Shown one piece after another: positions 161 through 49,647 of a DNA stretch of 64,000 nucleotides (positions within the stretch are counted from its first letter, which is position 1; every line of letters begins with the position of its first letter). Origin of the DNA: Buxus sempervirens (taxonomy: Eukaryota > Streptophyta > Magnoliopsida > Buxales > Buxaceae). The stretch covers positions 9,599,402 to 9,663,401 of the forward strand of contig OX387183.1 of the NCBI GenBank assembly GCA_947561395.2. The letters are read 5' to 3'. The translations under genes and the position numbers were made by a program. The notes beneath the pieces were generated by a model. It was given only the letters and a program-made list of their open reading frames with translations. It ran no database searches and was not told the DNA's origin.

Positions 161-180
161 ACTTCCCCTCTTTGCTGGAG
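161..180 (-). other. Polypurine tract next to the 3' LTR
   Basis: The minus strand reads AAAGAGGGGAAGT directly before TGTAGACACC. A purine run abutting the 3' LTR is where plus-strand DNA synthesis is primed in LTR retrotransposons. Its position fixes both element orientation and LTR edge. Confidence 0.65.
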
Positions 181-5500: not shown

Positions 5501-6104
5501 CCTTCTTTGGTACTGGTACTATGTTTGCGAGCCACTTCGGGTACGTAGAGACTGCCAAAAATCCTGCTTGGAACTGTTTGACCACTTCATCCTTGACCTT
5601 TAGAGTCCACTCAGGTTTCAATCTTCTCAGCTTCTGCTTAATCGGCTTAACCCCTGGCAAAATTGGCAACTTGTGCACCACCATGTCAGTGTCCAACCCC
5701 GGCATGTCCCGATACGACCAAGCAAACACATCCTTGTAGTCTGCCAAGAACTGTGACATTTCATTTTTCTGCACATCAAACAAGCATGACCCGATTTTTA
5801 CAATTTTTGGGTCCTCTTCGGTCCCAAGGTTTATGGATATGGTCTCCTCAATATTTGGTTGGACCCCCTTTTCATGACGTTCCAATTGGTATTCAATTTC
5901 TTTTGGAACATCTTCTTCTTCGACCTCGGTCTCTTCTTCGACCCCCATGAGATCAAAGTCGAGCTCAAGGTCGAAGTCATATTCAACCTGGTCCAATTCG
6001 GTCTGATTATATGGCTCATAAGTGGTTTGGACCTTTTTGAAAAAATTAAATTTCCTAGAAAAAATAGAAAAATCTTTTTGGTTTTTTGTGGGCCTTCTAA
6101 ACAT
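2571..6104 (-). CDS. pol: Tat retrotransposon pol: reverse transcriptase, dual RNase H, integrase (1177 aa, intact frame)
   Basis: This polyprotein copies element RNA and integrates the cDNA. After an acidic N-terminus, RT spans about residues 145-400 with YVDD at 307-310. A first, degenerate gypsy-type RNase H (about 448-535) is followed by a second archaeal-type RNase H (about 601-725, starting FFDGAANMNG). Integrase has the HHCC zinc motif (about 828-869) and D898, D959 and E995, the last two separated by 35 residues as expected. The segment after D959 reads SDNASN rather than the more usual SDNGT/SDNGS type. There is no stop over 3.5 kb, which suggests limited age. The frame is the same as that of the shifted gag tail upstream, separated by stops at 6387 and 6138 and one more just before the ATG; in Ogre elements such a region is removed as an intron, but splicing here is only a possibility. 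Confidence 0.93.
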   Translation of the reverse strand: MFRRPTKNQKDFSIFSRKFNFFKKVQTTYEPYNQTELDQVEYDFDLELDFDLMGVEEETEVEEEDVPKEIEYQLERHEKGVQPNIEETISINLGTEEDPKIVKIGSCLFDVQKNEMSQFLADYKDVFAWSYRDMPGLDTDMVVHKLPILPGVKPIKQKLRRLKPEWTLKVKDEVVKQFQAGFLAVSTYPKWLANIVPVPKKDGKVRMCVDYRDLNRASPKDDFTLPHIDILVDNTAVHSLFSFIDGFSGYNQIKMAKEDQEKTAFITPWGTFHYTVMPFGLKNAGATYQRAMTALFQDMIHKEMEVYVDDMIAKSCKEEDHLINLKKVFDRLRKYSLRLNPAKCVFGATSGKLLGFIVSRRGIEIDPAKAKAIIEMPAPRTEKEVRGFLGRIQYISRFIAQLTAICEPIFKLLRKDNPTVWNEDCQQAFDTINRYLLNPPVLVPPTPGRPLILYLSVLEMSMGCVLGQHDETGRKERAIYYLSKKFTEYEAKYSPLEKTCCALVWATQRLRHYFLSHSTLLISRMDPLKYLFEKSALTGRTAKWQLLLSEFDLTYITQKAIKGQAIADHLAAHPLPEYQPLKTNFPDEAILYTEEEENESSWQMFFDGAANMNGNGIGAVLVKPDGSHIPIAVKLRFQCTNNIAEYEACIIGLQAAMDHEVEELDVYGDSSLIIFQTTGEWKTKDYKLIPYHQYLEEISTNFTRISFNYMPRAKNQFADALATLASMVSISEGVDIRPLEIEVRDEPAYCLALEGAPEEETPWFQDIKNFLNNRSLPENATATEKRTIQRLAGQFLLSGGHVYKRSHNDILLRCVAKAESERLIETVHGGVCGPHMSGHMLAKKILRLGYYWTTMEHDCCIHVRRCHQCQIYADNKHAPPGELHNMTSPWPFSMWGIDVIGMISPKASNGHRFILVAIDYFTKWVEAASYANITSNHVIKFLKHNIICRYGLPNAIVSDNASNIKNKDMKKMCEQFQITHHKSAPYRPKMNGAVEAANKNIKKIIQKMVVSYKDWHEMLPLALHAYRTSIRTSTGATPYSLVYGMEAVLPVEVEIPSLRVLMEAELEEAEWIQSRHDQLNLIEEKRLKALCHGQLYQKRMARAYNKKVRPRTFQEGNLVLKKILPFLEDPRGKFKPNWEGPYVVKKVLSGGALILAEMDGSDFPEPINSDAVKRYFP

Positions 6105-6137
6105 AATTCCCCTGAAGACGAAGGCCCATTAGAACCT

Positions 6138-6810
6138 TCAGGGAAATGGCAATCCACTATTGGAGTTTTTTTTGGAAGCCGCGTCAGTTTGCCGAACTAA
6201 CGCTGCTTCAAAGGTAAGGGGAGTTTCCTCCCAATTGTTCAGTACAAAATTTTGGGGAGCAGGGGAAATAGGGAAAGCCTGCTCTTCAAACCCAGAATCC
6301 GATGCCATCATCACCGGGTGGGTACTGCCCTTTTCTGTTGCGGGGCCCAATCCAGAAATGACCTTGTCTGGAACCTTTACTGCGGCTCAGTCAATAAATG
6401 GCAGTTCCATGTCTGCCCCTGTCTTTTCGCCTTCAGTCATGGCGAAGAATGCACCAACATCTTCAGAAAAGTCCCTCTGCTGCTCGGGCTGTGGTCCAGG
6501 CCCATCTGCTGCTCCCAGTATTGGAGATGGGTTATAGGGTTGTAGGGCCGAAACAACGGGCTTTTGGAATGGGTTGATGTTGTAGTAGGGAGGCTTGGAC
6601 TGGTCCATGGGAGGAGAAATTTGGATTATGTAGGAGGGTTTTGGAAAGTTCACCCTCAGATGCGGGAGTTTTCCTTTGCTTCTGCTTTCCCCTTCTTCGT
6701 GCTTCATTCTCCTCCAACCTCTGGGCTCAAAGCCCAACCCTACCTTGGGGATCAGTTTCTTAGCCGTGATTGGCTCCACCATCCCCTGCAGATTGATCCC
6801 AGGCCTTTCC
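6138..6810 (-). pseudogene. Displaced C-terminal part of gag-pro (G-patch tail and proline-rich linker)
   Basis: About 6808 the gag-pro frame is lost by what looks like a one-base deletion: HFHPGKGLG is in the gag frame, while the matching continuation (GMVEPITAKK, then KVGLGFEP) is in the neighbouring frame. Together they look like the G-patch-like segment that follows the protease in Tat elements. The shifted frame is proline- and glutamine-rich, meets a TGA at 6387-6389, reopens, and closes at 6138. It is in the pol frame, so before decay gag-pro-pol may have been continuous or joined by splicing. Confidence 0.6.
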
Positions 6811-9800
6811 CTGGGTGAAAGTGGTATTTCTCCATCACTTTCTTGACCATCTTTTCTGCAGTGGTCCCCTTTTCCTTCTTTTTATCACACCCCCCAGGTA
6901 TGTAATTTACCGCCTCAAATTGAAATGAGTGGAATGCAATCTTGTCGACAGTTAGGTCCACATTGATCAAGGGTACATCAGGTGACACGATGGGCGGCAC
7001 CAAGTTTTCGGCTAGGACTGTTATCACCCTTTGCCATCTTACGTATTTCACCCTCTGGTGGAGCGTGGATGGTATTGCCCTAGCCGAATGTATCCACGGC
7101 CTTCCTAGGAGCAGATTGAAAGCTGCGGGTATATCCATCACCTCAAATGTGATGTTAAAGATATTCGGCTCAATTGTGACCGGCAGTTCAATCTCCCCTA
7201 GGGAGTGGGTCTTGGAGCTATCAAAAGCCCTCACTATCCACCCATTTCTTTTGATCCTTGACTGGTCCAGACCCAGCTTGGTAAAAGTGATTAACGGGCA
7301 AACGTTTAACGCTGACCCGTTGTCAATTAAAACCCGTGCAACCATGCAGCCCTTACAAAGCACAGTGATGTGCAAAGGGTCCACATGATAACACCCACCT
7401 GGGCTGATCTCACCCTCTGAGAAACTTATCACATTATGTGACAAGATTTGACCAACCATTTTACCAAGCTGGTCCGGATCAATTGTTTGGGACACGGGTG
7501 CACTTTGTAGCACCCTTAACAATGCATCCCTATGCTTTTCGGAATTCAGCAAAAGGCCCAATATTGAAATTTGGGCCGGGACCTTGTTTAGCTGATCCAC
7601 AAGATTGAATTCACTCTTTTTTATTATTTTTATGAGGTCTGCTGCCTCATTTTTTGCACCCTGGGGGGTGTCTTCTCCTACTTTATTTTTTCCTTTTTGT
7701 TTTCTTTTTTCTTCATTTTCTTTTTTTTCTTTCTCTACTTCTGTCTCTTTTTCTTTCTCTTCACCCCCTGCACATCTCCCTGACCTCGTCATGAGGTTCA
7801 CCTCCTCCTGGTTCGGGTTTCTAACCGCTGGAACCGTAGCCGTGATTCCCTCGTTGTAGTTCCATGGTACAGCGGCCTCTGAATAGGCTAATTTAGGGAT
7901 GTCAACCACTAGTAGCTGGAGTTTGGACCGGGATGTATGGGCCGGTTTAGGGATAGTATGGGCTGGCTGCACATTTACAACCAAGGGTTGAAGTTTGGAT
8001 TTGGTAGGGACAGAAGAAGTGATGGAAGCAGTGGTGGGGTCAAGATTGATGACCAGTGGAGCCTTAGACGGCTTGGATGGGGAATAAGTGGGTGGACTGC
8101 AATTGAAGACCAATGCGGGCCTTGCAGTATTCATCTGGGCCATGAGTGAAGAGACCCGGTTTAGAGAGGAACTTATGTCCTCAGCAGCAAGATTACTATT
8201 TTTTTGGGAGACCATGTTGATCTCCTCCTCTTCCTCTTCTTGGAAGAAACGGACCTGGACAGTGGTCCCCACGGGAGCTATGAGCTGTGATGGGTCAAAG
8301 GCCCTTCTGGTGGTGGATATGGCAGTGATGGAGTTGGATGGGCCTGCCCCATTGTGGTAAGGCAAAGGGTTCTGCCCAATATCATTCCCGGACGGGGCCG
8401 GTGCAACAGTGTTAAAGACCAAAGCCTTCTGGTCCAACAGGTCCTGGACCGCATGCTTCAGCACCCAGCAGGTATCTGTAGAGTGCCCCTGTGCACCCAT
8501 GTGGAAGTCACAGGTGACCGATGTGTCAAAATTTCTCCCCTTCGGGGCATTTGGGTTAGGCTCCTTCAGAGTCAAGTATTCCCCTTTCAGCAGGGTTGGC
8601 AGTAGTTGGGACAGAGATATGGGTAGAGGGGTGAAAACCCGGTTCTTTCTTGCTGTGAACCAGGCATCCCGCTCCTCCTTAGAAAAAGTCCTCCTTGTGT
8701 TAGCTGGCACAGAGGGAGAGAAGTTGACATTCAGCGGGGTCTGGTACGACTGCTGGGCCTGCTGGGCCTGTTGGGGTGCCGAGATGTTGACGTGAAGTGG
8801 CTTCTTGGCTGGAGGAGCCTGGACCAGGTTCACCTCCCCTTCTTTCCGGGCCCCCGTCTTTTTAAACCCGGCCCCTTTCTTCTGGGCCATGGAGGCAGAG
8901 GAATCAGACTGCCCAGTCAGAGTAGAGTAGTCTATCAGCCGTCCTGACCTGACCCCTTCCTCAATCCGGTCCGCCACTTGTACCAGGGCTGCAAAGTTGG
9001 TGGTGATCTGACCCACCAGATGGTTGTAAAAGGGCTGCCCCAGTGTGCCCATAAATGTGGAGATCATCTCCGGCTCTTGCATAGGTGGCCTGACCTGGGA
9101 GGCGGCCTCTCTCCATCTCTTGGCGTACTGCCGTACCGGTTCATCTTTCCCCTTGGTCATCCTCATCATGTCGTACCGGTCTGGCACGATCTCCGAGTTG
9201 AACTTGTACTGGTCCAGGAAAGCGTCGGCTAGGTCCTTCCACCTCCTGATCCTTCCATGGTCCACTGTAGCGAACCACCGAAGGGCTGACTCGGTCAGAC
9301 TCCTCTGGAAGAGCTGGATCAGTATGCCATCATCCCGGCCAAACTGGCACAGGGCCCCGCAGTATAGTTTCAGATGGCTTAATGGGCAGCCCGTGCCATC
9401 AAACTTGTCGAAGTCTGGGCACCTGAACTTAGCCGGTAGACAGACGTCCGGGTACATGCACAGGTCCTCGAAGGTGGTGCCTGCATGGCTGCCTCCCCCC
9501 TTCACTTCCTTCAGCTCTGCCTGGATTCTTTCTATCCTCAGCAGCATTTTCCTTTCAGTTTCTTCCCTGGCCTTTTCCTTCTCCAGTTCTTTCTCGGATT
9601 CTGCTGTATTTTCCCTGATCAGAATGGGTTCAGGGACTGGTTCAGAAATGGGCTCAGGCATGGGTTGAGCCGGAAGCGGAATGTAGGCCTGAGGTGGTGG
9701 TGCTTGATGGGAAGTCGATGCTTGGTTTTGGGCCTAGGCCTGTTGGGCCTGAGCCGCCAGTAGGTCTCCCAGCATTTTGGCCAGACCGGCCACTTGCTCC

Positions 9801-20882: not shown

Positions 20883-23800
20883 ATGAGTTCTTCCGCATCT
20901 GCAAACAACTCTGTTCTGGAGGATTTTTCCAATCCTTATTTTCTTCATCATGGAGAAAGCCCTGGTTCAATCTTGGTTTCTCAGCCTTTGAATGATGAGA
21001 ACTATTATACGTGGAGCAGATCAATGTTGACAGCTCTCAATGCCAAGAACAAGATGGGGTTCGTGGATGGAACGTTCTCTCGACCTCAAAATCAATCTGA
21101 TCCACTGTATATTCTGTGGTTTCGTTGCAATAACATGGTCCTTTCATGGATTCTTAATTCTCTTACAAAAGAAATTGCAGCCAGTGTCATCAGCACTCCA
21201 GTTGCTGAAGAAGTTTGGAGGAATCTGAAAACAAGATTCACTCAAGGTAATGGTCCTAGCCTATTTCAACTCAAGAAAGATCTCGCTTCATTAGTTCAAG
21301 ATCAATCTTCAGTAAGTTCCTATTACACGAAATTGAAAGCTATATGGGATGAGTTTTCCACTGTGAAACCAATTCCTAGTTGTTCTTGTAATCCGGGCTA
21401 TTCTTGTGGAGCTTTAAAGACTATAATTGATCAACATCAAAAAGAATATGTTGTTCAATTTTTGATGGGTCTAAATGACTCTTTTACACACATTCGTGGC
21501 CAAATTCTATTAATGGATCCAATGCCATCCATTGACAAAGTTTTATCCCTTACTTTACAAGAAGAAAAGCAAAGAAAGGTGATGGGATCATCTTTGATGA
21601 CTGAAACTGCTGCTTTGTTCAGCAAGAATGTTAATGTTCCTGGCACAATGCTCAAGAATTATCAGAAGCAACGTTCTAAGCCAGTTTGTACTCATTGTGG
21701 TCTCACTGGGCATACAGTTGATAGATGCTACAAGTTACATGGATATCCAATTGGGTATCGTCAGAATCCAAGAACCAAAACATCTTCTGTACATCAAGTT
21801 TCATTATCTTCCACTGGTTTTGATGAAGCATCCATGGCTTCAGATTCAGCTCCTCATTTCCCTTTCACCAAAGAACAATGTCAGGAACTTCTTTCCTTCC
21901 TACAGCATTCGTCACAGACAACTCAGCCTACAGCAATGAATGCTATGAGCAATTTATCTTCTGCTTCAAACTCTTTGAGTTTATCAGGTATGATTAATTC
22001 ACCTGATTTTGTTTCTAAGCAATCAAATTCCTGGATAATTGATAGTGGTGCTACTGATCATATGGTCAGTTCTATTTCACATTTCACTACAATTACCTCT
22101 ACTATAAACACTTCAGTAAAGTTACCAAATGGAACATGTGTCCCCGTCACACATGTTGGAATTGTACAACTATCAGACTCATTAGTTCTTCATAATGTTC
22201 TGTATGTTCCATCTTTTTCTTTTAATCTCATCTCAGTCAAAAGGCTCACAGAAAATTCTTGTTGTTTTCTGTTTCTTTCTCATTCTTGTTTCATACAGGA
22301 CCTACACTCATTGAAGACGATTGGAGTGGCTAAACAAGTAGCTGGGTTATATTTGTTGCAAGCATCTGTTTTAGATTCTAGTGTTTTTTCTGCTGTAAAT
22401 CTTTCTTCCTTTGATCTTTGGCATTTTAGGCTAGGCCATCCCTCTCTTAATAAGATTCAAACACTACAAAAGTTGTTGCCTGATATACATACTCCTTCAA
22501 ATTTCAATTGTAATATCTGTCCATTGGCAAAACATAAAAGATTGCCATTCAATACTAGTCATTCCATCAGAAATAAAATTTTTGACTTGATACATTGTGA
22601 CATTTGGGGTCCCCTCAATGTTGAGTCAATCACTGGTTTTAGATATTTTCTTACAATTATGGATGATTACTCACGTTGCACTTGGGTATATCTGATGAAA
22701 AATAAATCTGACACTCGCTCTCTAGTTCAGTCATTTTTTAAACTCATAGAGACACAATTTGATATTCATATCAAAACTATAAGGACTGATAGAGGGGCTG
22801 AGTTTGATATGCCAGAATTTTATTCTTCTAAAGGAGTCTTACATCAACAAACATGTGTTGCTACACCTCAACAAAATGGTGTAGTTGAGCGTAAACACCA
22901 ACATCTCTTAAATGTGGCAAGATCTCTTAGATTCCATGCAAATTTACCCCTTGTATTCTGGAGTGAATGTGTTCTCACAGCAACGTACTTAATAAATAGA
23001 ACACCCTCTCCTCTACTATCCAATAAAACACCATATGAGGTCTTATTCTCAAAATCACCAAATTATTCTCATCTTAGAGTATTTGGTTGCCTCTGTTTTG
23101 CATCAACCTTATCTCATAATCGCTCTAAATTTGCACCTAGAGCTCATCCCTGTGTTTTTCTTGGATACCCATATGGCACTAAGGGATACAAACTCTATGA
23201 TTTAGAAACAAATGCCATCTTCTTATCTAGAGATGTCATTTTTCGAGAATCTGTTTTTCCATTCAAAACTGGGCATGATCTTTCCACTCAGTCAGTAGTC
23301 ATACCAGTTCCTCAAACAGATGATCTTATTCCTATTGATACATTCACATCTCCTACAAATCAGATTGCTCAAGATATTATTCCCAACTCCATGAATGAAC
23401 CCACAAATAATACAGTTCCAACACACATACCAGTTCCAACTCAAATACCAGTTCCAAATGTTTCTCAACAAAATTCAATAAATCCACAGCCTAAAATTAG
23501 AAAATCCACTAGAGTTCACAAAAATCCATCATATCTTGAAGATTACCATTGTAACTTAGCTAATGCTGCAGAGGCCACTTCATCATCTGATTCTTTGAGT
23601 AAAGGTTCTATCTCAGGTACTCAATATCCAATATCTTCTTTTTTATCATATTCTAATCTTTCTTGTGCTCATAAAGCATTTACACTGTCCATTTCTTCCC
23701 AAAAAGAACCAACATCTTTTAGACAAGCCATTCAATATACTCAGTGGTGTGATGCCATGGCTGATGAGATTAAAGCCTTGGAAGATAATAAAACTTGGAC

Positions 23801-25298
23801 TATAACTCACTTACCTCCCAATAAACAAGCTGTAGGATGTAAGTGGGTTTACAAGATCAAATATAAATCAGATGGGTCTGTGGAAAGATACAAAGCACGA
23901 TTAGTTGCTAAGGGCTATACACAGCAAGAAGGATTGGACTACCTAGAAACTTTTTCACCTGTTGCCAAGTTAGTCACTGTACGGGTTCTGTTAGCCATAG
24001 CTGCATCCAAAAACTAGTCTTTGCATCAATTGGATATCAACAATGCATTTTTGCATGGAGACTTAGAAGAAGAGGTTTACATGTCTTTACCTCCTGGATT
24101 TCATTGCAATTCGAAGGCATCATCTGCTCAGGGGGAGTTTCTACCTTCTGCTCGAGCTAATTCCACTAGATCTCAGTTTGTATGCAGACTAAATAAGTCT
24201 TTATATGGCCTCAAACAGGCATCAAGACTGTGGTTCTCAAAGTTTTCATCTGCTTTGATAGCTCATGGTTTTATCCAATCTTCAGCTGATCACACTTTGT
24301 TCACTCGACAGAAAAATAATTCATTCATTGCATTATTGGTTTATGTAGATGATATAATCATCACCAGTAATGATGAAGCTGCTGTAGATGATTTAAAGAG
24401 ATTTCTTCATTCCCAATTTAAGCTCAAAGACCTTGGGCCTTTGAAATACTTTCTTGGTCTTGAGATTGCTCGTTCCACAAAAGGCATTACAGTTTCACAG
24501 AGAAAGTATGCTCTTGAAATATTGTCTGATTCAGGCTTTTTGGCATGTAAACCAGCCTCATTTCCTATGGACCAGAATTTGAGATTATCCAAAACAGAAG
24601 GAAAGCCTCTTCTGGATCCACTTTGTTACAGAAGATTGGTGGGTAGACTTCTCTACTTAACCATTACAAGGCCTGATTTATCATTTTCTGTTCAAATATT
24701 AAGTCAGTATGTTGCAAGTCCCACTGAAGTTCATTTGGCAGCTGCTCATCATGTACTGAGATACATCAAAAGCAACCCTGGCCAAGGCCTATTCTTCCCA
24801 TCAGCAAATGATCTACAACTGAAGGCATTCTGTGATGCAGATTGGGCTGCCTGCAGAGATACTAGAAAATCTATTACTGGTTTTTGTATATTTCTTGGAC
24901 AATCACTCATTTCATGGAAATCCAAGAAGCAAAATACAGTGTCCAGGTCTACAGCAGAGGCTGAATACCGTGCTATGGCAACAACAACATGTGAAATTAC
25001 TTGGCTGCAACACTTGTTGAAAGACTTCTTTGCACCACAATTCAAACCAGCTGTGCTTTTTTGTGATAATCAGGCTGCCATGCACATAGCAGCCAACCCA
25101 GTTTTTCATGAACGTACAAAACATATAGATATAGATTGTCATATTGTTAGAGAAAAACTGTTGGCAGGAACTATAAAAACATTGCATGTTTCCTCAACAG
25201 GGCAGCTAGCAGATATTTTGACTAAGCCTCTTGGCTACAATCTCTTCTCTAATATTCTTTCCAAGATGGGTGTTATTAACATTTACACTCCATCTTGA
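20883..25298 (+). pseudogene. Copia gag-pol polyprotein, single frame with one TAG in reverse transcriptase
   Basis: One frame from ATG 20883 to TGA 25296-25298, about 1471 codons, is interrupted only by TAG at 24015-24017. Order: gag (UBN2-like) with zinc knuckle CTHCGLTGHTVDRC; protease site DSGATDHM; integrase with HHCC (HFRLGHPSLNK, CNICPLAKHK) and DDE residues (HCDIWGPL, RTDRGAEF, GVVERKH); RT starting KWVYKIKYKSDGS with YVDD in [11 protein letters not shown]; RNase H with FCDADWA and [11 protein letters not shown]. The TAG lies in RT between ASKN and [14 protein letters not shown], where the family usually has Trp, so TGG to TAG is the likely change. Because the LTRs look identical, the mutation is recent or the copy was mobilised by enzymes from another element. 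Confidence 0.95.
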
Positions 25299-25544: not shown

Positions 25545-26970
25545 TTTTCTGCAACAGTTAAAGCCACCATCAGATCCAGAACTTTTACTCTCTCAATTAC
25601 TTAAACACCCAACAAGGCGCCCATCAACTCAAATCCATGCCCAGTGGATCACAACTGGATGGTTGTACCAGTACCCCGCCAAGAGCCACGAAGGAATGCT
25701 GGTGTGGAACGGTTTGATTAGAGTGTATTCGTATGGTATCTTCCCTGAAGAAGCTTTGAAACTCTACAAACAAATGCAAGGGATTTCTTCTTCTTCTCCG
25801 ACTTATCCCAGGGTGGATAGCTTTACTTGCTCTTTTCTACTTAAGGCTTGTGCTAATTTGCTCCAACCCATCAAAGGAAATCAAATTCATGCGTGTATTA
25901 TCAAGGTGGGATTAGAATTTCATGTCTATGTGCAAACAGCTTTGATAAATATGTATGCCGTTTGCGGGTGCATAGGCCAAGCTAAAAGAATGTTCGATGA
26001 AATGCCTGAGAGAAACTCAGTGACTTGGAATGTTATGATCACCGGTCTAACTAAACAGGGTGAGCTCCATCTTGCACGAATGCTCTTTGATGAGATGCCG
26101 AACAAGACAGTTATCTCATGGACTGGTATGATTGATGGCTATAGTCGAACAAATCGGACTGTGGAAGCTCTTGCTTTGTTTTGTCAAATGATGAGAGAGG
26201 AAGGTATAAAACCAAACGAAATTACAATTCTAGCTATCCTTCCGGCCATTTGGAACATCAGAGCTCTTAAAATTTGTCAGTCAATTCACTCCTATGGGGA
26301 GAAAAATGGGTTCAATGCCTTTGAAATCCGAGTTACAAATTCTCTTATAGATGCATATGCGAAGTGTGGGTGTATAGAGAGTGCATTTAGAGTATTTGAG
26401 GAGATTTCAGCTGGAAGGAGGAACTTGGTGTCGTGGACATCAATAATCTCTGGTTTTGCAATGCATGGAATGGCAAAAGAAGCAGTGGAACAGTTTGAGA
26501 ACATGGAGAAGACATGTAGTATGAACCCGAATCAAGTGACATTCCTAAGTGTTTTAAATTCTTGCAGCCATGGAGGACTGATCGAGGAGGGGCTTAGTTT
26601 TTTCTCAAATATGGTTAACAGGTATAAAATTCTGCCAGATATCAAGCATTATGGGTCCTTAATAGACATGTTGGGGAGGGCTGGGAGGTTAGATGAGGCA
26701 GAGAAGCTGGTGCTGGAGATGCCTATGGAGACGGTCAATGTGGTGATTTGGAGGACTCTTTTAGGTGCTTGTAGCTTCCATGGGAATGCAGAAATGGGTG
26801 AGAGAGTAATGAGAAAAATATTGGAGATGGGTGAGAAAGGGTATGGTGGTGATTATGTGCTATTGTCCAACATCTTTTCTGGTGTTGGAAGGTTTAGGGA
26901 TGCTGAGAGAGTGAGGAGATTGTTGGATGAAAACAATGCCTCCAAAGTTTCAGGCCATAGTTTGTTTTGA

Positions 26971-32962: not shown

Positions 32963-33142
32963 GTCCATTGTCATTTGGCTACATTCAATACCATACATAC
33001 ACCGACTGGTTCAAAATTAAAGCAAAAGGCAATCTCATAGATGGGGACAATCTCTGTCCTTAAAGGAAATGTCCATTGTCATCTAGCTACATTCAATACT
33101 ATACTTACACCGACTGGTTCAAAATTAAAGCAAAAGGCAATT
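32963..33142. repeat. Tandem duplication of about 108 bp containing the hAT target
   Basis: GTCCATTGTCAT followed by matching sequence (CGACTGGTTCAAAATTAAAG in both) occurs at 32963 and again at 33071. The copies differ at a few bases. The first hAT landed in the left copy. Confidence 0.8.
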
Positions 33143-33269
33143 TCTATAAATTATTGCAGTTTCCAAATTAAGGTTGACTTTAATTAATCTTTATTATTAT
33201 TATTATTATTATTTATGAACTGATTTGGGAATACACATAACTGGCGGGGACAAAAATGTCCACAAGAAA
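33143..33269. other. Flanking DNA with a (TTA)n microsatellite
   Basis: An ATT/TTA microsatellite lies near 33192-33213. No gene was seen before the Helitron terminus. Confidence 0.6.
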
Positions 33270-33438
33270 TCTATTATATAAAGGGAAAGGGACTTGGATC
33301 GTCTACGGTCGGACTTGTAATTTTGACCAACCTGTAACCAATTATGTGGTGCCATATCAGCAAATTTGCAGTATCAGGGCCACGTGATCACAAAACTCAA
33401 ACGGCGTTAGACATTTACCTAAAAATATTAATTTTTTA

Positions 33439-33705
33439 TTAGAGCGCGACAATCGATGGCTGCGCCTCGACTGACGCGCCCTCTCCTCGACTACGACAAA
33501 CCTCTTCCACTCTTCCAAAACGACCACCTTTCCCTAACCTCTGTTTCTCTCTCTCTCTCCTTTCATCGGTTTTTAGACACCGTTTCACAAACATCAGCTG
33601 ATCGAGTAAGGTCCTTCGTCTCCTCCTTTCATCTGCAAACTCTTCCACAATACCTTCTATAGAGTTCTGAAGCTCCAGATCGGAAGCACAAGAAAACGAA
33701 CTAAG
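33439..33705 (-). other. ORF in the MULE arm, duplicated in the other arm (unidentified)
   Basis: The predicted peptide is highly charged (SIEGIVEEFADERRRRR), with an equally open plus-strand frame (33456-33662) across the same DNA. Both frames are conserved in the second arm (37461-37730), so conservation does not decide the strand. I do not recognise it. It could be captured coding sequence or 5' UTR. Confidence 0.35.
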
Positions 33706-33740
33706 CAATCTCTTTTTCCGGTTTATTCAGAAAAGGACAT

Positions 33741-33845
33741 ATGGAGGAAATTCAATCCTCGCGTTTCAGTGGTCGAGATGATGACGTGTTCTACGAAATG
33801 ATCAAAGCGCCCAAGTTTGTGGATTTCACGGTCTCCGATCTTTAA
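33741..33845 (+). pseudogene. Captured first exon of an unidentified plant gene (broken copy)
   Basis: It begins ATGGAGGAA and reads SSRFSGRDDDVFYEMI, then PKFVDFT, and stops at TAA 33843-33845. The copy in the right arm (minus strand, from 37428) stays open to 37186. The text resembles, from memory, the N-terminus of a conserved plant protein of unknown function; a GT-type donor may follow the DDRSW segment. A protein search with the right-arm copy would test this. Confidence 0.4.
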
Positions 33846-34509
33846 TTTCCCGACGATCGTTCCTGGGTTTGCCTGGGGGTGGGTCTGTTCTTTATTTCGC
33901 ACTCTACCTTTCCTGATAATTTCATGATTCGTTTCGTTCAATTAAAAGCGCATCATTTTCCGCTTTTCCCATTGATTCCGTAAGCTCCTACATCCTGTTT
34001 ATAAGCATTTGTGTTTGATTATTTCTCATTTCAACCCTAAAAACAACTTTTGCAAAGCTATGCTTGATATTCAGATTTTCCGTGTAAGTTTATCTCTCTC
34101 TTTTTGAGCTCTCATTTGACTTTTCTTGAGCACCCAGAAACCGAGAAAACCTGTAGGGATCACGAAGATTATTAAGAAAATATAACGAAAGCCGAAAATG
34201 TATGGTTGATTCAATCTTGTTTTTTCTTCACTTTTTATTTTATTGATTCACACCAAATGGATGGGCTTCAAAATCTGCTTCTGTTTCCTAAAACATTGTA
34301 GATATCTCTGGAATTATGGATTTCTGGGTCCTGAATTCTACAGGTTGTGTGTAAAAATCTCATTGGTTTTAATCAATCAAGGCAATAGGAGCATCATATT
34401 GATGACACAATAGGCTAATAGTACAATAAAATGTAGGGTTCTTCTGCTTCTTTCTTGGGATCAATATAGTTCTGATCTTTATTCTCTCTTCTTTTCTTGA
34501 TTACTGTAG

Positions 34510-35350
34510 GATGGACCGGTTGGTGCAAGACCAGAATAAACAATTCACCATTTTCTATAATGGGCATGTTTGTATCTCCGATGCAACAGAGATTAAGGTA
34601 CCTATACGCAATAATTTTTATACCTTTTGCAAGAGATTTACATTATCTTTATGTAAAGCTTGGAATTCTCATGACTCAGTTCGGGGTGGGAAGTGTCCTT
34701 ATAGACCTAGCACAAATCTTGTTCGAACCCATGAAATAGGGTTTTAAGGGATCAAGTAAACACAACCACACCATCACAATCCAAAAGGGATCCTTGATTA
34801 ATTCTATACCCAAAGATGATAGATTCATGACTTAATATATTACCGAAAATTTCTTTTTTATTTAAGAAGACGAAGAAGAATTCAATTTCATGCAATTGTG
34901 ATATTCAAAATTCTTGCATTATTTGTTTGAATTGCTAATTGTTACATTATAATATACTTGTATCGAAACTGAGCTTTGTATATATTTGAAGAAAGGGAGT
35001 GAAGTGGTTATAACCAATTAGTAATTTTGTTTTTGAAATGCAGGCTAAAGCTCTGATAAAGTTTTTAAGTCAACAAACTGAAAGAAAGATGGACACGCCA
35101 CAATAGGAACCCGTTTCGCAGACCATGCAATCTCTGGGGTACAGCCCTCCAAGTTTTCGTGAAAAGATCACTGCAAAGGTTTCTCCAAAAGAAAGAACAG
35201 AATCCAGGCAGCTTCCCCCTACAATTGATTGTAGAATTTACAGTGCTAAATTTTGGGGAGATACCAAAGTAGGAGTTCCTTTTAGCAGAAGGGCATGTAA
35301 CAAAAAAGATGTGTTTGGTGGGGAGATACCAAGTAGGAATTCCTTTTAGC
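34510..35350 (+). pseudogene. Captured TIFY/JAZ-like gene fragment (two exons)
   Basis: TIFY-domain proteins include JAZ repressors of jasmonate signalling. After an acceptor TACTGTAG, the exon 34510-34597 encodes QFTIFYNGHVCISDA, with the exact TIFYxG core. It ends ATTAAG|GTACC. The next exon starts at 35044 after AAATGCAG, in phase, with AKALIKFLSQQT. This intron position, just before an AKA-like alanine run, matches JAZ genes. A TAG then follows after about 20 codons (near 35104), and the frame reopens to 35347. No Jas motif was recognised. It is a fragment in a transposon, so it should not be counted as a functional JAZ gene. Confidence 0.68.
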
Positions 35351-36257
35351 GAAAGGGATGTAACAAAAAAGATGTGTTTGGTAATGTAAATGCATAAATG
35401 CTTATCCATAACACAACCAAAAAAGCTTTAAAAGCATTTATTCAAAAAATTCAACTTTATGTGGTGCTTAAATTTTAACATAGTTCATCCTTAGATTATT
35501 GAGTTCTAGATATTGATGCTAAATGTTAGTTAAAACCATTTTTTTTTTAAAAAAATGCTGCTTTGCTTAATGATATTCCGTTTTATAATTGAAAATTTAT
35601 TTTGGCCTGAAACTTACAATTTAGAGCTGGTTTGTGGCACACATAAAAAGAGCTCTCCGAATAAGCTAACTCATGTGTGTTACCTACCTTTATAATATAG
35701 TTAATACAAAAACAAATCCATTTTTCTTTTCATAATGTTTTTTTTATAGACAATCCCTCATCATTTGTGACAAAACCACTCTTGCTTTATCAGGCTTCAT
35801 TCCCTCATATATAAAGATTGGAAGCAAATTAAAGGTTTGAGGTTGGAAGTTTTGCCCACGGAGGAAAGATTCACGTTATACATTCAAGTGTCAAAAATGA
35901 TCTCCATTATTTTTGGACTTGATACCCACCCGAATGATCATTTGGCTTTGCATAAACTTAGTATTTCAACTATGATGATCTGAAATTTGTTTGTTTTGTT
36001 TTGTGTGTGACCTTATTTGGGCTTCTTACATCCATCTATCTCTCACCTAGGCTCCCAAAGAATAAAGTGATCGATTGAACCGAATTGCTCCGGTATCCTA
36101 TTTTGAGTGTTCCATGCTTGCAAAATTTAAGTGACCTGTGAGAAATTATGTTGCTTTTGGAATTGTGGTCATCTCAATGTGATCACTAAGGCCAAAATAG
36201 AATGTAAATTACTTCCTTTGAATTCAAGTTGCAAGACAATGAATAAGGAAGACATCT
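35351..36257. other. Pack-MULE middle, no gene recognised
   Basis: AT-rich sequence, including a repeated GTAACAAAAAAGATGTGTTTGG (two copies near 35300 and 35355, given here as their shared GTAACAAAAAAG start). No protein similarity was recognised. Confidence 0.45.
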
Positions 36258-36690
36258 TTAATGAACAAGCTCCCTGTAAAACCTTATTTCTGCCTCAACC
36301 CAAACAATGAAACTATAACAAAAAAATTGGTTACAAGTGATTTCGTTGAGGATACAGCATCCATTTAACGCCATAGTCAACTCAAACTCATCATGTAGCA
36401 TTTGGAGCACCTTTCTTATTCCACACTCACCTTCAGCAGCCAAAGAGAACACCACAGACCTTCCAATCCGAGATATAAAGCAGGATCAACTGGTAAAATC
36501 GCCTACAAGAAGAGAAAGTATAGGAGCTTACGGAACTCATCTTGTGCAGCTTTGACAACCTTAAAATACAGCAATAATGAAAAGTTATATCAAATAAATA
36601 CTAACTGATATTTTGAGTAAATAGAAGAATTGACAATTACCTCTTCCAGAGCCATAATAGTTGCACGACCATTCCCTCTTTCAAAGCAGC
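36258..36690 (-). pseudogene. Captured glycolate oxidase fragment
   Basis: Glycolate oxidase is the peroxisomal photorespiratory FMN enzyme. On the minus strand, exon text ATIMALEE ends at a GTAATT donor (36640), VVKAAQ begins after TTTTAAG (36560), and [19 protein letters not shown] then [13 protein letters not shown] follows (36455 onward). These match the C-terminal part of plant glycolate oxidases. The segment between VVKAAQ and [10 protein letters not shown] is missing or scrambled, so about 40 residues are lost. The frame ends in unrelated sequence at 36258. It is a gene scrap carried by the MULE. Confidence 0.78.
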
Positions 36691-36730
36691 ATAAAGAAAA
36701 TCTATTGTTTTAAACAGGATGGAGGACCCT

Positions 36731-37885
36731 ACATTGCATTGTACTACAATTAGTCTATTGTGTCATCAATATGATGCTACTATTGCCTCTAATTGATTAA
36801 AACCCATGAGATTTTTAGACACAACCTGTAGAATTCAGGACCCAGAAATCCATAATTCCAGAGATATCTACAATGTTTTAGGAAACAGAAGCAGATTTTG
36901 AAGCCCATCCATTTGGTGTGAATCAATAAAATAAAAAGTGAAGAAAAAACAAGATTGAATCAAGCATACATTTTCGGCTTTCGTTATATTTTCTTAATAA
37001 TCTTCGTGATCCCTACAGGTTTTCTCGGTTTCTGGGTGCTCAAGAAAAGTCAAATGAGAGCTCAAAAAGAGAGAGATAAACTTATACGGAAAATCTGAAT
37101 ATCAAGCATAGCTTCGCAAAAGTTGTTTTTAGGGTTGAAATGAGAAATAATCAAACACAAATGGTTATAAACAGGATGTAGGAGCTTACGGAATCGATGG
37201 GAAAAGCGGAAAATAATGCGCTTTTAATTGAACGAAACGAATCATGAAATTATCAGGAAAGGTAGAGTGCGAAATAAAGAACAGACCCATCCCCAGGCAA
37301 ACCCAGGAACGATCGTCGGGAAATGAAAGATTGAAGACCGTGAAATCCACAAACTTGAGCGCTTTGATCATTTCGTAGAACACATCATCATCTCGACCAC
37401 TGAAACGCGAGGATTGAAGTTCCTCCATATGTCCTTTTCTGAATAAACCGGAAAAAGAGATTGCTTAGTTCGTTTTCTCGTGATTCCGATCTGGGGCTTC
37501 AGAACTCTATAGAAGGTATTGTGGAAGAGTTTGCAGATGAAAGGAGGAGACGAAGGACCTTACTCGATCAGCTGCTGTTTGTGAAACGGTGTCTGAAAAC
37601 CGATGAAAGGAGAGAAAGAGAGAAACGGAGGTTAGGGAAAGGTGGTCGTTTTGGAATAGTGGAAGAGGTTTGTCGCAGTCGAGGAGAGGGCGCGTCAGTC
37701 GAGGCACAGCCATCGACTGTCGCGCTCTAATAAAAAATTAATATTTTTAGGTAAATGTCTAACGTCGTCGGAGTTTTGGCTTCTGATCACGTGGCACTGA
37801 TACCGCAAATTTGCTGATATGGCACCACATAATTGGTTACGGGTTGGTCAAAATTATGAGTCCGACCGGTAGATAATCCAAGTCC
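36731..37885 (-). repeat. Right terminal inverted arm of the Pack-MULE
   Basis: It is the inverted partner of 33290-34440. It carries the less damaged copy of the captured first exon (37428 to 37186, minus) and the charged ORF (37461-37730, plus). Confidence 0.85.
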
Positions 37886-38033
37886 AAGGAAAAGAGGCTC
37901 GGGCTTACGTGGCTGCCTCGTCCAGCCACGCTCACCTGAGCCTCTGTGTTATTATTTGTTTTTCTTTTTTATTAAAATATCGTTCTGTTTTTTTCTTCTT
38001 TCTTTCTCTTTTTTTCTCTCATCTAACCCATCT

Positions 38034-38185
38034 TTCTCTTTCTCACCTGTCATTCTCTTCCTCACTCCCTCATCCATCTACACCATATTAGGTGCAATTG
38101 CAGGTCACCTTCTCGAATGTTCTAACGAGTTGGCAGTGAAGAAGGCAAATTGTTGGGATTTTTTCTCATTTTTTCCTCTCTTAAC

Positions 38186-38225
<40 letters not shown>

Positions 38226-38345
38226 TGTTGTTCTCTTCCTCACTCCATCATCAGTCTACAGCGTATTATGTGCGATTGCAGGTCACCTTCTCGAATGTAC
38301 TAACGAGTCGGCGGTGAAGAAGGCAAATCGTTGGGATTTTTCTCA
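38034..38345. repeat. Tandem duplication (period about 184 bp) with a (TC)n tract
   Basis: A block with CACCTGTCATTCTCTTCCTC / CACCTGTTGTTCTCTTCCTC and GCAGGTCACCTTCTCGAATG occurs twice. A TC dinucleotide run lies at about 38190-38222 between them. Within the Helitron. Confidence 0.75.
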
Positions 38346-45644: not shown

Positions 45645-46850
45645 TCACGGTCCTCCAAACTCGCCGAACTGTCGGACAATTTGATTAGCTGCTTCACTTT
45701 CTGTTGCTCTGAATCTCTTCTTCCCCAGTGCCTGAGCAGCTGATGGGAGTCCTCCACAATTTTCAACAATTTCATCCTTCAAACTCGTTAAATCCGAATT
45801 ATCAAATTCCATTCCTTGATTCTGGGCTGTCTGTATGAATATGGACCAGATATCTGTATCTTTCAGAGGCTGCAAGCGGTACAAGTTAGTCTCTCCGACC
45901 ATTCTTTTCGCCACCTCTTCCAGCCTACTTGTGACGATGATTCCGCAGCCATGGCTCTTTGGCAGTCCGTACGTGAGCCGGTGACCACTCTCTGTGTGCT
46001 GAGAAGGCTCATCCAATTCGGGAACAGCCAAGCCCTCGTACCACTCGCTTACGCGCCAGACGTCGTCCAGTACAATTAGATACCGCTTGCCTTTAAGCCG
46101 TTGACGAAGGCCAAGTAAGAGCTGGTCTAGGCCACAACCACCATTACCATCAATTAAGAAAGATAAAGTGTCTTCGTCTTCACCCAGCTGCTCCATCATA
46201 TACTCCACCAGCGTCGACCTTATTGCATCCGGATCATCGTTATATGTCCTGGACAAACATATCCATATCCTTGGAAAGTACACGCTTTGCACGTTGGGGC
46301 TGTTGAAAACCAGTTGAGCAAGCGTGGTTTTGCCTGCACCGCCCATTCCGACGATCCCGATTGTCTTCGTCTTATCAGAACCTCGATCTTGAAGGAGCAG
46401 TTCTTCCAATTTCTTCACCTGGTCATCGAACCCATAGATCCCGGAGACGTTCACCAAGGAATCGGATCGCCGATCGATGATGGATGAAACGTTGGCCGTG
46501 CTCGATGACCCTGCCGCGCAATCCGGAATACTGGCGAGAGCTTTTCTGACTTCAAGCAGCCGACTCTCGATTTTGAGACGCGAAAGTGATTCTTTAAAAT
46601 GGTTTAGACAGAAGGAATTGTTTTGCTTGGTATCTGGGCGCTTCTCCGATATCATCTGGCAATCCTCCAATATGTAGTTGAGATTGCGCAGTAAATCCAC
46701 GGTCACTGAGGGACTGTTTTTCTTCTTTTCAACCATTTCTTTGATTTCCGTAAAAGTCGAGCGGAAAGGAAGTCGCTTGGAATCGATTTGCGCTTCCTCA
46801 AGGTCGCGGATGAATTTGCTAATGAAAAGATCAACAATCTCCTTTCCCAT
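45645..46850 (-). CDS. Truncated CC-NB-ARC resistance-type protein (no winged helix, no LRR)
   Basis: NLR proteins are intracellular immune receptors. From ATG 46850 (401 aa; an upstream in-frame TTG is less likely) there is a helical N-terminus of about 130 residues, then NB-ARC: P-loop GMGGAGKTT near 168-176, kinase-2 LIVLDDVW near 258-265, RNBS-B IIVTSR near 304 and GLPL-type CGGLPSAAQALG near 365. The protein then ends within about 25 residues, with no MHD, winged-helix or LRR. It lies 0.8 kb downstream of, and on the same strand as, a gene with just those missing parts. It may be a nucleotide-binding helper, a truncated relic, or one half of a split receptor. Confidence 0.85.
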   Translation of the reverse strand: MGKEIVDLFISKFIRDLEEAQIDSKRLPFRSTFTEIKEMVEKKKNSPSVTVDLLRNLNYILEDCQMISEKRPDTKQNNSFCLNHFKESLSRLKIESRLLEVRKALASIPDCAAGSSSTANVSSIIDRRSDSLVNVSGIYGFDDQVKKLEELLLQDRGSDKTKTIGIVGMGGAGKTTLAQLVFNSPNVQSVYFPRIWICLSRTYNDDPDAIRSTLVEYMMEQLGEDEDTLSFLIDGNGGCGLDQLLLGLRQRLKGKRYLIVLDDVWRVSEWYEGLAVPELDEPSQHTESGHRLTYGLPKSHGCGIIVTSRLEEVAKRMVGETNLYRLQPLKDTDIWSIFIQTAQNQGMEFDNSDLTSLKDEIVENCGGLPSAAQALGKKRFRATESEAANQIVRQFGEFGGP

Positions 46851-46954
46851 TTTGCTTGTAACTCCCTTGCCCAAAATGTTCGGCTCCCAACTCCGGAAGG
46901 AATCTCACCCTTTCTCCGTTGCGATTATCGGAAGAAATTTGGACTTGCGGGGGA

Positions 46955-47090
46955 GAGTAAAATTAAAATGACACTGATTCTTAATTATTTTAAAAATTAT
47001 CACTAATTATTAATAAATGAGAATTGGGTGACTGAATCTAAATTATTTTTAAACAGCATAATTTAAAACCCATTTTCCTTTAAGCAAACT
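46955..47090. repeat. MITE fragment beside the NLR start
   Basis: It shares GTGACTGAATCTAAATTAT-like and TTTTTAAACAGCAT-like pieces with 63105-63240, and with the foldback MITE at 42195-42540. It lies about 100 bp upstream of the NB-ARC gene's ATG. Confidence 0.5.
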
Positions 47091-47649
47091 TATGTTATCT
47101 TGAAACCTTTTTGTAAAAGCAGTGGAATGACACTCATAATCAATTATCTTAAAAAAGGTATCATTATTTATCAACTACCAAAAATTAGGCAAATCTTAAA
47201 AAATTTAACGTTTCAGACTGTTTTGAGTCAACCACCAATTTGCTTATTGCTTTGTAATCATGTCATATGGGAGGTGAGGTTTCTCTTAATTGGCATTGCC
47301 TTTTGGCTTTGTTTTGTATTTGTTGGTTTGCAAGCAAGATATATAAGCTAAGGAAAATAAGAACATCAATTGCGAAATTATTAATTTGGCTCCAAAAATC
47401 CATTCCATCACAGATTCGGGAAATTTGAACTGATAATTGTTAGTGAAATTCAGAAAGCTTCTTAATTAGTTGCTTTTTGTGTAAGTTTTTGGGCGTTCTC
47501 ATAATTAAGCAGTAGCAGTCATTTGGGAGAAATCAAGTACAGTACAATTTAATCAATTAACATTCTTCAACTTTGGAAGAGCATGACCCAACTAGTTCTT
47601 GTGGCATTCCGTTCTGTTCCAATGTAAAATATCAAAACAATTAAAAGCT
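47091..47649. other. Spacer between the two NLR halves
   Basis: AT-rich with no ORF of note. It would hold the promoter of the NB-ARC half and the 3' end of the LRR half. Confidence 0.5.
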
Positions 47650-49647
47650 TTACATGATCGTCGTCGGTGCCCCCTTGGTCCATCTGGCACCGGCAACTTC
47701 TTTTCTCCATACTCCGTCATCTCTCATTTCTGCACAACACTCGTCGCATAGAAACCTTTCACATTTAACCTTCTCAAAGTAAGTCAGATTCGGAAAAGCT
47801 GACTCCACATCCTTCCATTTGATTTCCATGTCTTTGAGGTGCTTCAAACGCAGAGTTGTAACTTTATTCTCCGGGACGTCCAAGCTACGCAGTTTCCCTC
47901 CCCTGATGTACAGCTTCTCCAGATTCAACAATTTACTAGCTCTCAACCAATCTGGTGCCACGGTACGAGGGAAGCATCGAAGGTCCAGCTTTCGGAGGCT
48001 GGTAGGAATCGATGGGGAAGACTTCTTAGTCATGGATTCCTTCTTACTAAGCTGTCGGATTGCCCTCTTGAATTCGATAGATCGTCCTCCCCATGATATT
48101 GTTAGGATGCGAAGTGCTTTGAAGTCGGACAAATTACTGAGCTCGTCTTCTTGATTTTCTACCGCGCTCCCCATATATATACTCAGTTTTCTCAGCTTTG
48201 GCCATTCTGCAAGCTTGCGGAGGTCACAACCATCTTTATCTGAACTGCTATGCACAACAAATCCCTTGAGCACCTGGAGTCCAGAGAGCTTTTCGAGCTC
48301 CTTGGGCATGCTTTCCAGCAAATAACACTCGGATACATCCAGGTGTGTCAGTTTCTTCAGTGAGCCGATGCAGGAGGGCAATCGACCCAGATTGTGGCAT
48401 GCTCGAAGGTCCAAGATTCTAAGGTTCTCTAGTTTCGCAATGGAGTCTGGTAATTCCATGATTCTAGAAATCCCTCCAAGGCTAAAGTACTTGAGGTGTT
48501 TCTGAGTCTCCAAACCCTTCATGAATTCGTCATCCACTACCTCGATATGATGAGTAGTCGATTTCTGCCATCTTCCCAAGTGAAGAACTATCATATTTCT
48601 CGCATTTGACAGCCACTGACGGTCAAGTTTTAAGTACTGCTCGTTTACATTGAACAGTGTCTGCAAATCTTCAGGTTTTGGAATTTCTTTTTCTACTTCT
48701 TTCTGCTGAGAAGTTCCGGATCCTCCTTTGTAGTCCTTGGATACCAAGCATGCACGGCCGGATGACGAGAAACTAGTCGGCGGTGTTGCCTTCGTCATAT
48801 CGAAGTCAAAGAACTCAGCTTTTTGGGCAGCTGAGATCAACATGCGACGGATCCAGGGATGCATTGTACAGCTACTAAAACTGGGGCTCAGCTTTTCATT
48901 GTGGGGTTTGATCATGCCCTTTCTTATCAGCTCCCGGAAGACGTGTTCTCCTTCTTCTTCTGCAGTATTATTATCTTTGGCGGTTACAAAGCCTTCTCCT
49001 ATCCACCAGTAGATTAAAGGTCTCTTCTTTATAACTGTGTTGTCGGTGAAGATGGAGAAGCAGAGCAAGCAGAGCTTCAAGCGCTGTTCGAGGACTTCAT
49101 AACTCAAAGTAAGACTAGTGATGGTAGAGCTTGTAAGAATATACTCTTCCATGCGATGCTTCTGCCAATATTCTGATGCTGCTTTTTTAGCTTGATCCTT
49201 GACTGCCGGCAGCTTGTCAGTTTTCCGACGGAGCAGTACTTTGGTTTTCAAATCAATGATGGACAGTTGATCTTTTATGGTTCTAATTTTTTCTTCAGTG
49301 CTGCGAAGATTGGATTCCGATATGGAAGGCCTGTTTTGCATTTCCTCACTTGAATTGCGATTCTCATAGACACCATCTTGGATTTCTTGTACCAATTGTC
49401 CGACTTCCCGGATCATACTCACCAATTCTTTGAATTCCTTGATCATATTCTCTTCCCACCCCTGGACACTGGGCAAGATGGGTTTCATATATTCAAGCCC
49501 ATCCTCTACAGACTTGAACAACTCCTTTATCCGTGACGAGTTCTCACTGTTACTGTTGTGGTCGACAAGGGCAATACTTCTCTTGGCCTCACTCAGCCAA
49601 CCCTGCAAAATCGGCATGGCTGCTTCTGGATTCCTGTGCACCGGCAT
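47650..49647 (-). CDS. NLR-like protein with winged-helix and LRR but no NB-ARC P-loop (665 aa)
   Basis: The first ~170 residues are helical, with charged heptads. A winged-helix segment follows at about 176-270 (LTLSYEVLEQRLKLCLLCFS, KRPLIYWWIGEGFV), which in full NLRs lies after NB-ARC. LRRs fill about 345-640 (LRILDLRACHNLGRLP, LTHLDVSECYLLESMP). No P-loop, kinase-2 or GLPL is present, and there is no stop or shift, so it looks intact rather than decayed. The style recalls RPP13-like protein 4 (ZAR1-type) relatives. TGTGCAG just before the ATG could be a splice acceptor, so an upstream exon is possible. Its missing module is present in the neighbouring gene at 45645-46850. Confidence 0.85.
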   Translation of the reverse strand: MPVHRNPEAAMPILQGWLSEAKRSIALVDHNSNSENSSRIKELFKSVEDGLEYMKPILPSVQGWEENMIKEFKELVSMIREVGQLVQEIQDGVYENRNSSEEMQNRPSISESNLRSTEEKIRTIKDQLSIIDLKTKVLLRRKTDKLPAVKDQAKKAASEYWQKHRMEEYILTSSTITSLTLSYEVLEQRLKLCLLCFSIFTDNTVIKKRPLIYWWIGEGFVTAKDNNTAEEEGEHVFRELIRKGMIKPHNEKLSPSFSSCTMHPWIRRMLISAAQKAEFFDFDMTKATPPTSFSSSGRACLVSKDYKGGSGTSQQKEVEKEIPKPEDLQTLFNVNEQYLKLDRQWLSNARNMIVLHLGRWQKSTTHHIEVVDDEFMKGLETQKHLKYFSLGGISRIMELPDSIAKLENLRILDLRACHNLGRLPSCIGSLKKLTHLDVSECYLLESMPKELEKLSGLQVLKGFVVHSSSDKDGCDLRKLAEWPKLRKLSIYMGSAVENQEDELSNLSDFKALRILTISWGGRSIEFKRAIRQLSKKESMTKKSSPSIPTSLRKLDLRCFPRTVAPDWLRASKLLNLEKLYIRGGKLRSLDVPENKVTTLRLKHLKDMEIKWKDVESAFPNLTYFEKVKCERFLCDECCAEMRDDGVWRKEVAGARWTKGAPTTIM

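Follow-up and report, generated by a model that had tools for sequence, protein, structure and literature searches.

We analysed a 64,000-bp window of the Buxus sempervirens genome (C3:9599402-9663401; the genome comprises 676.5 Mb, labels such as C1 or C22 denote its sequences, and positions without such a label refer to the window). An element with exact limits lies at 33290-37885, opening with GGACTTGGAT and closing with its complement, and a check of these ends in the letters confirmed the coordinates and sequence words of an initial annotation made from the sequence alone. The 9-bp flank match (8/9) and the long inverted arms described in that annotation are also present: AAGGGAAAG and AAGGAAAAG agree at eight of nine positions, a level equalled by 22 of 59300 same-spacing pairs in the window (22 of 59386 in a second count), and the arms of about 1.15 kb are 95.5% alike. 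Pieces of a JAZ gene, of a glycolate oxidase (GLO) gene and of a third host gene, on C4, lie within these limits, and no transposase family was found among the seven element frames scanned with Pfam. The element is a true, non-autonomous Pack-MULE, a known kind of transposon. Its annotation as a Pack-MULE that carries fragments from three host genes (one JAZ/TIFY, one for glycolate oxidase and one unknown) thus holds, and a search for the parent loci in the same genome, as proposed there, found similar loci for all three pieces. It is a worthwhile variant of the Pack-MULE, with a probable capture of neighbouring genes, with gene-bearing arms and, above all, with a cargo shared behind two families of ends. 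The features are as follows.

33281-33289 (no strand): left target-site duplication, AAGGGAAAG, 8/9 against 37886-37894
33290-34442 (plus): left arm (extended terminal inverted repeat), 95.5% identical to 36723-37885 over 1163 columns
33290-33559 (plus): MULE terminal repeat proper, shared by the family, with the GGACTTGGAT end; placed by genome matches of the first 271 bp
33651-34024 (plus): 5' part of the C4 host gene (5' untranslated region, exon 1, start of intron 1) in the left arm, 75.8% to C4:10332540-10332946
33741-33979 (plus): arm open reading frame (ORF), left copy, stop at codon 35
34083-34834 (plus): JAZ piece 1, with intron 1, exon 2 (34510-34597, TIFY core) and the start of intron 2, 82.9% to C14:18369579-18370316
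34875-35223 (plus): JAZ piece 2, intron 2 followed by exon 3 (starting at 35044); the reading frame meets a stop after TPQ, and the Jas region is shifted out of frame; 80.1% to C14:18370415-18370753
35254-35382 (plus): 66-bp tandem duplication of JAZ 3' sequence, 92.4%; both copies match around C14:18370844-18370886
35714-36325 (plus): middle filler resembling C10:41742285-41742974, 84.4% and 72.9%
36328-36672 (minus): GLO piece, comprising exon and intron parts and lacking one exon segment, 88.3% and 89.4% to C14:18373103-18373299 and C14:18373414-18373555; Pfam FMN_dh
36521-36534 (plus): 14-bp word TAGGAGCTTACGGA where the GLO deletion lies; the arms hold the same 14 bp at 37179 and 33977 (inverted)
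36723-37885 (minus): right arm, pairing with 33290-34442, 95.5%
36723-37084 (minus): inverted copy of JAZ intron 1 in the right arm, 78.7% to C14:18369581-18369928
37145-37518 (minus): inverted C4 gene piece in the right arm, 75.3% to C4:10332540-10332946
37190-37428 (minus): arm ORF, right copy, no internal stop
37886-37894 (no strand): right target-site duplication, AAGGAAAAG

Copies and relatives of the element

The genome was searched with the element itself, giving 104 matches; the best 40 of 127 candidates were scored, so the copy counts are lower bounds. At least five composite copies are present, namely the window copy on C3 and copies on C9, C1, C6 and C12, which are 97.7%, 95.9%, 93.3% and 93.2% identical to it, respectively; the C6 and C12 copies are 98.6% alike. 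Arm identity inside each copy is 95.5% in the window, 91.1% in C1, 97.2% in C6 and 97.1% in C12, and in C9 it is 97.1% and 94.5% in two parts, the arm being broken by an insert. This insert (C9:43672760-43674034) is about 1.27 kb long and has inverted ends of its own of about 70 bp.

The target duplications of the four other copies were read by eye. They are exact in C6 (ACAAAGGCA, 9/9), C12 (CACCCTCAA, 9/9) and C1 (TAGATTAA, 8/8), and the C9 copy shows 7/8 only after two eroded end bases are omitted on each side. All five copies are therefore flanked by duplications of the size typical of MULEs (about 8-11 bp); at such spacings, exact 9/9 pairs occurred by chance in 0 of 59447 cases and 8/8 pairs in 1 of 59313. 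The flanks of 1.7-2.4 kb showed no similarity between copies at E<=1e-4. Since the five copies have different flanks and target duplications, the composite has spread by transposition, as expected of a Pack-MULE, and the element combines the absence of an internal transposase with host gene fragments (the JAZ, GLO and C4 pieces).

The terminal 271 bp, used as a query, gave 100 genome candidates; the best 40 were scored and all matched, 10 of them in the five copies and 30 elsewhere, showing that the long terminal inverted repeats are common to other elements. Among four terminal relatives read with both ends, target duplications were found on C15 (9/9), C8 (8/9) and C3 at 49.39 Mb (8/8), and the relative at C14:0.14 Mb had no clear one. 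MULE transposase domains are abundant in the genome (1051 candidates, with 150 of 150 scored above the cut-off). At C22:22254993-22260027, a single 830-residue frame with PF10551 MULE (5e-30), PF03101 FAR1 (1.6e-25) and PF04434 SWIM (4.3e-8) matches sits between GGACTTGGAT-type repeats that are 99.3% alike over 148 bp. The ends of the window element are thus related to those of an element encoding a MULE transposase.

Sources of the captured gene pieces

The TIFY exon matches Pfam tify (E=3.2e-7 by itself, 2.4e-9 once the next exon is added), and with a similar JAZ gene on C14 the annotated TIFY/JAZ-like domain is well founded. The match to JAZ begins within one base of the intron-1 donor (GTAAGTTTATC) and runs through exon 2, intron 2 and exon 3. 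On C14, five tandem JAZ-like copies (C14:18316276-18370886) adjoin a glycolate oxidase gene. The best donor of piece 1 is the copy next to this gene (C14:18369579-18370316, 83%), the other four copies reaching 76, 75, 72 and 71%; spliced by eye, this JAZ parent has tify and Jas motifs. In an unrooted tree of both pieces, the GLO-adjoining copy groups with all element copies (support 100/100), and unrooted trees of the pieces apart unite them with 100/99 (piece 1) and 99/97 (piece 2). The same grouping (96/95) was obtained when a tree of exons 2 and 3 was given the C8 JAZ as its root.

The GLO piece matches FMN_dh (2.8e-9) and a plant glycolate oxidase structure (PDB 5zbm, 2e-17 over 48 residues), in agreement with the glycolate oxidase C-terminal words noted earlier on the other strand. 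It covers profile positions 301-344 of 350 and is therefore a fragment of the FMN-dependent dehydrogenase domain. The C14 GLO gene (C14:18373096-18376859) is apparently complete, its exons spanning profile positions 1 to 349 of 350 with gaps between some profile matches and further exons legible in the sequence, and it is the best gene at the DNA level (88-89% vs 77.6% for the C8 paralogue). The 14-bp arm word at the gap in the GLO piece is what template switching would leave.

The JAZ and GLO donor stretches on C14 are 2.2 kb apart and convergent, and their order and orientation are kept in the element; on C8, JAZ and GLO are paired more loosely, at a distance of 17.5 kb. Since the best donors are adjacent and convergent with order and orientation kept, capture from one neighbourhood is preferred to two unrelated scraps, and both pieces were most likely taken from this region of C14. 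The initial annotation, which had spoken of gene scraps from unrelated pathways packed together, needs correction on this point. In the element, the JAZ and GLO pieces are now separated by 0.94 kb of other DNA, partly like C10 (the 84% filler match pairs C10:41742285-41742845 with 35714-36325).

The third piece comes from the 5' region of a C4 gene. The frame at C4:10332540-10332946 reads MEELQSSRLSDGDDDEFYEKIEAPKFVDFTDPDLSLPDDRSWFCLRVG and, further on, EQKHEEEMDPEALYRSFVLR. With the splice site placed by eye, the parental exon 1 ends about 48 residues in, and the remainder of the 80-residue arm ORF is parental intron 1. The annotated duplication of the first-exon-like ORF in both arms is real, and on this reading the ORF runs past the parental exon. 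The C4 parent protein, spliced by eye, had no Pfam match at E<=1, and the arm ORF and the TIFY piece gave weak, chance-level PDB matches (E 0.71-0.87). Among viral contigs, two stretches fitted the arm ORF pattern, none of them confirmed, and the arm DNA word gave 0; in a large protein collection, the joined arm/TIFY query shared words with 18 candidates, none at E<=1. Capture of the C4 piece may be older, because parts of the same 5' region are also found at two other MULE ends, C3:49.39 (88% to C4 over 165 bp) and C22:16.63 (85%, 67 bp). The first 270 bp of the element have no match in the C14 and C4 donor stretches read.

Gene-bearing arms and two types of ends

The right arm holds an inverted copy (36723-37084) of JAZ intron 1 (34083-34442), and the C4 piece lies in both arms; captured DNA has therefore become arm sequence. 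Copying of one arm onto the other would be the simplest account of such gene-bearing arms.

The C6 and C12 copies match the window element only from element position 153 to 4438. In place of the outer 152 bp, both of their arms end in 135 bp starting with CAGTTCAC; the junction falls at one and the same arm position on either side, and the exact 9-bp duplications follow. A query of the CAGTTCAC end with 25 bp of arm gave 60 candidates; the best 40 were scored and all matched, four of them in C6 and C12, and among the matches listed outside these two copies are 13 inward-facing CAGTTCAC end pairs, 3.2-9.3 kb apart. One such member, C14:10893656-10900868, has 1285-bp arms that are 99.5% alike and the duplication GAAGAAAGT (9/9), and it has only its first 135-140 bp in common with the C6 copy. 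Judging from this member and from C6 and C12, the second family also combines 9-bp duplications with long inverted repeats, as MULEs do. The C14 member has the same design of gene-bearing arms, with an identical 189-residue frame in each 1.28-kb arm; the one arm scanned carries a ribosomal S21 domain (PF01165, 4.9e-17). In this member, the only one of the CAGTTCAC family read, there is no frame longer than 189 residues. This same element (stretch C14:10893601-10900950) looks young.

Arm positions 153-268 are part of the repeat of the GGACTTGGAT relatives; in the single CAGTTCAC family member read, they do not follow the end. Because of this distribution, we infer that the GGACTTGGAT ends came first and were later exchanged. 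The JAZ-GLO cargo and the long arms occur behind both end types, each with target duplications, and we regard it as evenly balanced whether a Pack-MULE cargo can in this way change the transposon family that moves it. If cargo does pass between end families, its spread is not bound to the fate of one transposase. If arms are copied onto each other, the symmetric exchange of ends and the captured first exons in both arms would be explained together, and such elements would be two-way exon carriers. A related MULE at C3:49392130-49395044 has ends that are 77-82% similar and a cargo that is 95% similar (resembling 35185-36263), so that diverged members of a single end family, too, seem to have passed cargo between them.

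Assembly, alternative readings and coding capacity

The best explanation, which we consider likely, is a non-autonomous Pack-MULE assembled stepwise, with the JAZ and GLO pieces captured from one neighbourhood. A GGACTTGGAT-ended MULE would have borne the 5' end of the C4 host gene beside its terminal repeat. From one C14 neighbourhood, it would then have taken up JAZ sequence reaching from the intron-1 splice donor past exon 3, together with exons of the convergent GLO gene, perhaps through template switches while a gap was repaired. One arm would next have been copied onto the other, so that the C4 exon and JAZ intron 1 came to lie in both, and a transposase acting in trans would have moved the composite to at least five sites. 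In the lineage of C6 and C12, both outer 152-bp ends would have been replaced by the 135-bp ends of the second family, and that form would have transposed too. According to excerpts of one paper, how Pack-MULEs acquire host DNA is unsettled, and capture through microhomology-based gap filling is documented in animals and suggested for plants (PMC8277862). The Buxus element bears on this mechanism in that a convergent pair of neighbours was seemingly taken up together, and that captured sequence and new outer ends occupy the two arms symmetrically, a pattern that suggests copying from arm to arm. Since similar loci for all three pieces lie in one genome, the element allows a direct comparison of breakpoints, order and filler DNA.

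As described in excerpts of four papers (PMC4858842, PMC3310237, PMC8903248, PMC8277862), Pack-MULEs of rice and other plants are likewise non-autonomous, with long inverted repeats, short duplications and gene fragments, and in Oryza two or more parents contributed to 5-10% of the putative genes derived from MULEs. Unlike the elements in these excerpts, the window element holds captured gene sequence within its arms too, draws on what appear to be two neighbouring donors, and has its cargo behind two end families. The tomato tandem-TIR (terminal inverted repeat) Pack-MULE PM-ZIBP, in the part of PMC3310237 that treats it, also combines one cargo with copies of different terminal architecture, but its extra repeats come from the same TIR family, whereas the C6 and C12 copies of the Buxus element have outer ends of another family. 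Turmoil-1 of C. elegans is presented in excerpts of PMC2572040 as carrying pieces of two host genes inside inverted terminal repeats, but it belongs to the Harbinger superfamily and has its own transposase. In the coral CMITEs (PMC2872659), the inner region is better conserved between families than the terminal repeats; these are small non-coding miniature inverted-repeat transposable elements (MITEs) linked to piggyBac, with an inner region whose origin was unknown to their authors. With the wordings used in the open-licence literature, the matches listed included, by their titles, no on-point paper on terminal-repeat exchange in MULEs beyond this coral MITE analogue, and no paper was found on a Pack-MULE with TIFY or on one with glycolate oxidase.

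Several observations weigh against the proposed history. The 2.2 kb of C14 intergenic DNA between JAZ and GLO was compared as a source of the middle of the element and is not in it. For piece 2, the GLO-adjoining JAZ copy (80.1%) is not top by BLAST, the others reaching 81.3, 81.2, 79.7 and 77.9%; the branch uniting it with the element copies in the unrooted tree is short (0.0084), and the rooted exon tree has a long outgroup and a C6/C12 exon 2 that is partly misaligned owing to the deletion in these copies. The divergence of intron 1 from its donor is 17%, and therefore the true donor allele may be gone. A GLO piece at C1:18280633-18280862, which lacks JAZ and does not have the internal deletion, is situated 2.6 kb away from a divergent MULE end (70%). 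It is 90.4% identical to the element over 167 bp, closer than the C14 GLO, and groups with the GLO pieces of the element (94/92). Because of this closer resemblance, GLO may have travelled separately. A CAGTTCAC-type end pair is also found near this C1 piece (C1:18292400-18298183). In addition, the right-end bases of the C22 transposase element are eroded, with the last ones gone, and no matching target duplication was found there.

Two separate events, in which GLO was captured first by another MULE and JAZ later, with the adjacency on C14 reflecting coincidence or a local hot spot, would account for the JAZ-less C1 piece and for a spacer unlike the C14 intergenic DNA. We consider this unlikely, since the donor stretches are only 2.2 kb apart in the whole genome with order and convergence kept, and since, of five tandem JAZ copies, it is the GLO-adjoining one that groups with the element. 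That the element is no MULE, and is instead a segmental duplication or palindrome resembling one, is extremely improbable. Arms carrying gene sequence could arise by palindromic duplication, but five copies without common flanks, their target duplications, the conserved ends among the 100 terminal candidates (40 of 40 scored matching) and a relative with a MULE transposase frame refute it as far as the tools used go. The initial annotation had named two outcomes that would count against it, a lack of similar parent genes and arms that are ordinary segmental duplications without MULE relatives; similar parent genes and MULE relatives were both found.

It is also very doubtful that the composite is a chimeric gene in use, in which the arm would provide promoter and exon 1, and splicing to the TIFY exon would yield a short Jas-less TIFY protein, or an RNA acting on the parents. 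A GTAAGC donor in the C3 (window), C9 and C1 copies does put the arm ORF in frame with the TIFY exon, and in C9 and C1 the predicted join gives an open frame of 129 codons; C6, C12 and the C4 parent have ATAAGC at that site. TIR promoters are reported, in excerpts of one paper, to drive the inner sequence of Pack-MULEs (PMC3310237). For some Pack-MULEs, though not all, the captured pieces are reported to be transcribed. Against this, the left arm ORF of the window copy has its stop at codon 35, and the TIFY exon of that copy runs into a stop (TPQ*). A frameshift disrupts the Jas region of all five copies, so that TIFY (present in the window copy) is nowhere joined to an intact Jas, and in C6 and C12 the TIFY exon is broken and GLO contains a stop. 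Read from its frames, the window copy, with GLO as a fragment, is unable to code for a JAZ or GLO protein. Substitution counts gave no support for selection on the arm-TIFY frame: the arms of the window differ by eight nonsynonymous and one synonymous changes, and the synonymous/nonsynonymous counts between copies over 79/311 sites (C9-C1 8/15, C3-C1 4/17, C3-C9 4/5) give no consistent constraint. Exact parent matches are few among the 9152 element 21-mers of both strands (46 to the JAZ locus, 27 to the GLO locus and 7 to the C4 gene, introns included), and with up to two mismatches the numbers are 496, 200 and 191, introns again included. Regulation of the parents by sense or antisense RNA of the element, as suggested in the initial annotation, is possible but unsupported.

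In the window as a whole, no tRNA was found and Rfam gave no match at gathering scores. Tandem duplications flank the insertion on both sides, at 38031-38341 (133 bp, 89%) and 32963-33144 (74 bp, 93%). Long frames of gypsy-type and copia-type long terminal repeat retrotransposons lie at 2571-9661 and 20883-25298 (the frames at 6752-9661 and 24021-25298 were outside the domain scan), and an open frame for a 435-residue PPR protein with an E motif lies at 25663-26970. At 45645-49647, the minus strand holds two frames that contain NB-ARC and winged helix/LRR domains and are apparently pieces of disease-resistance genes.

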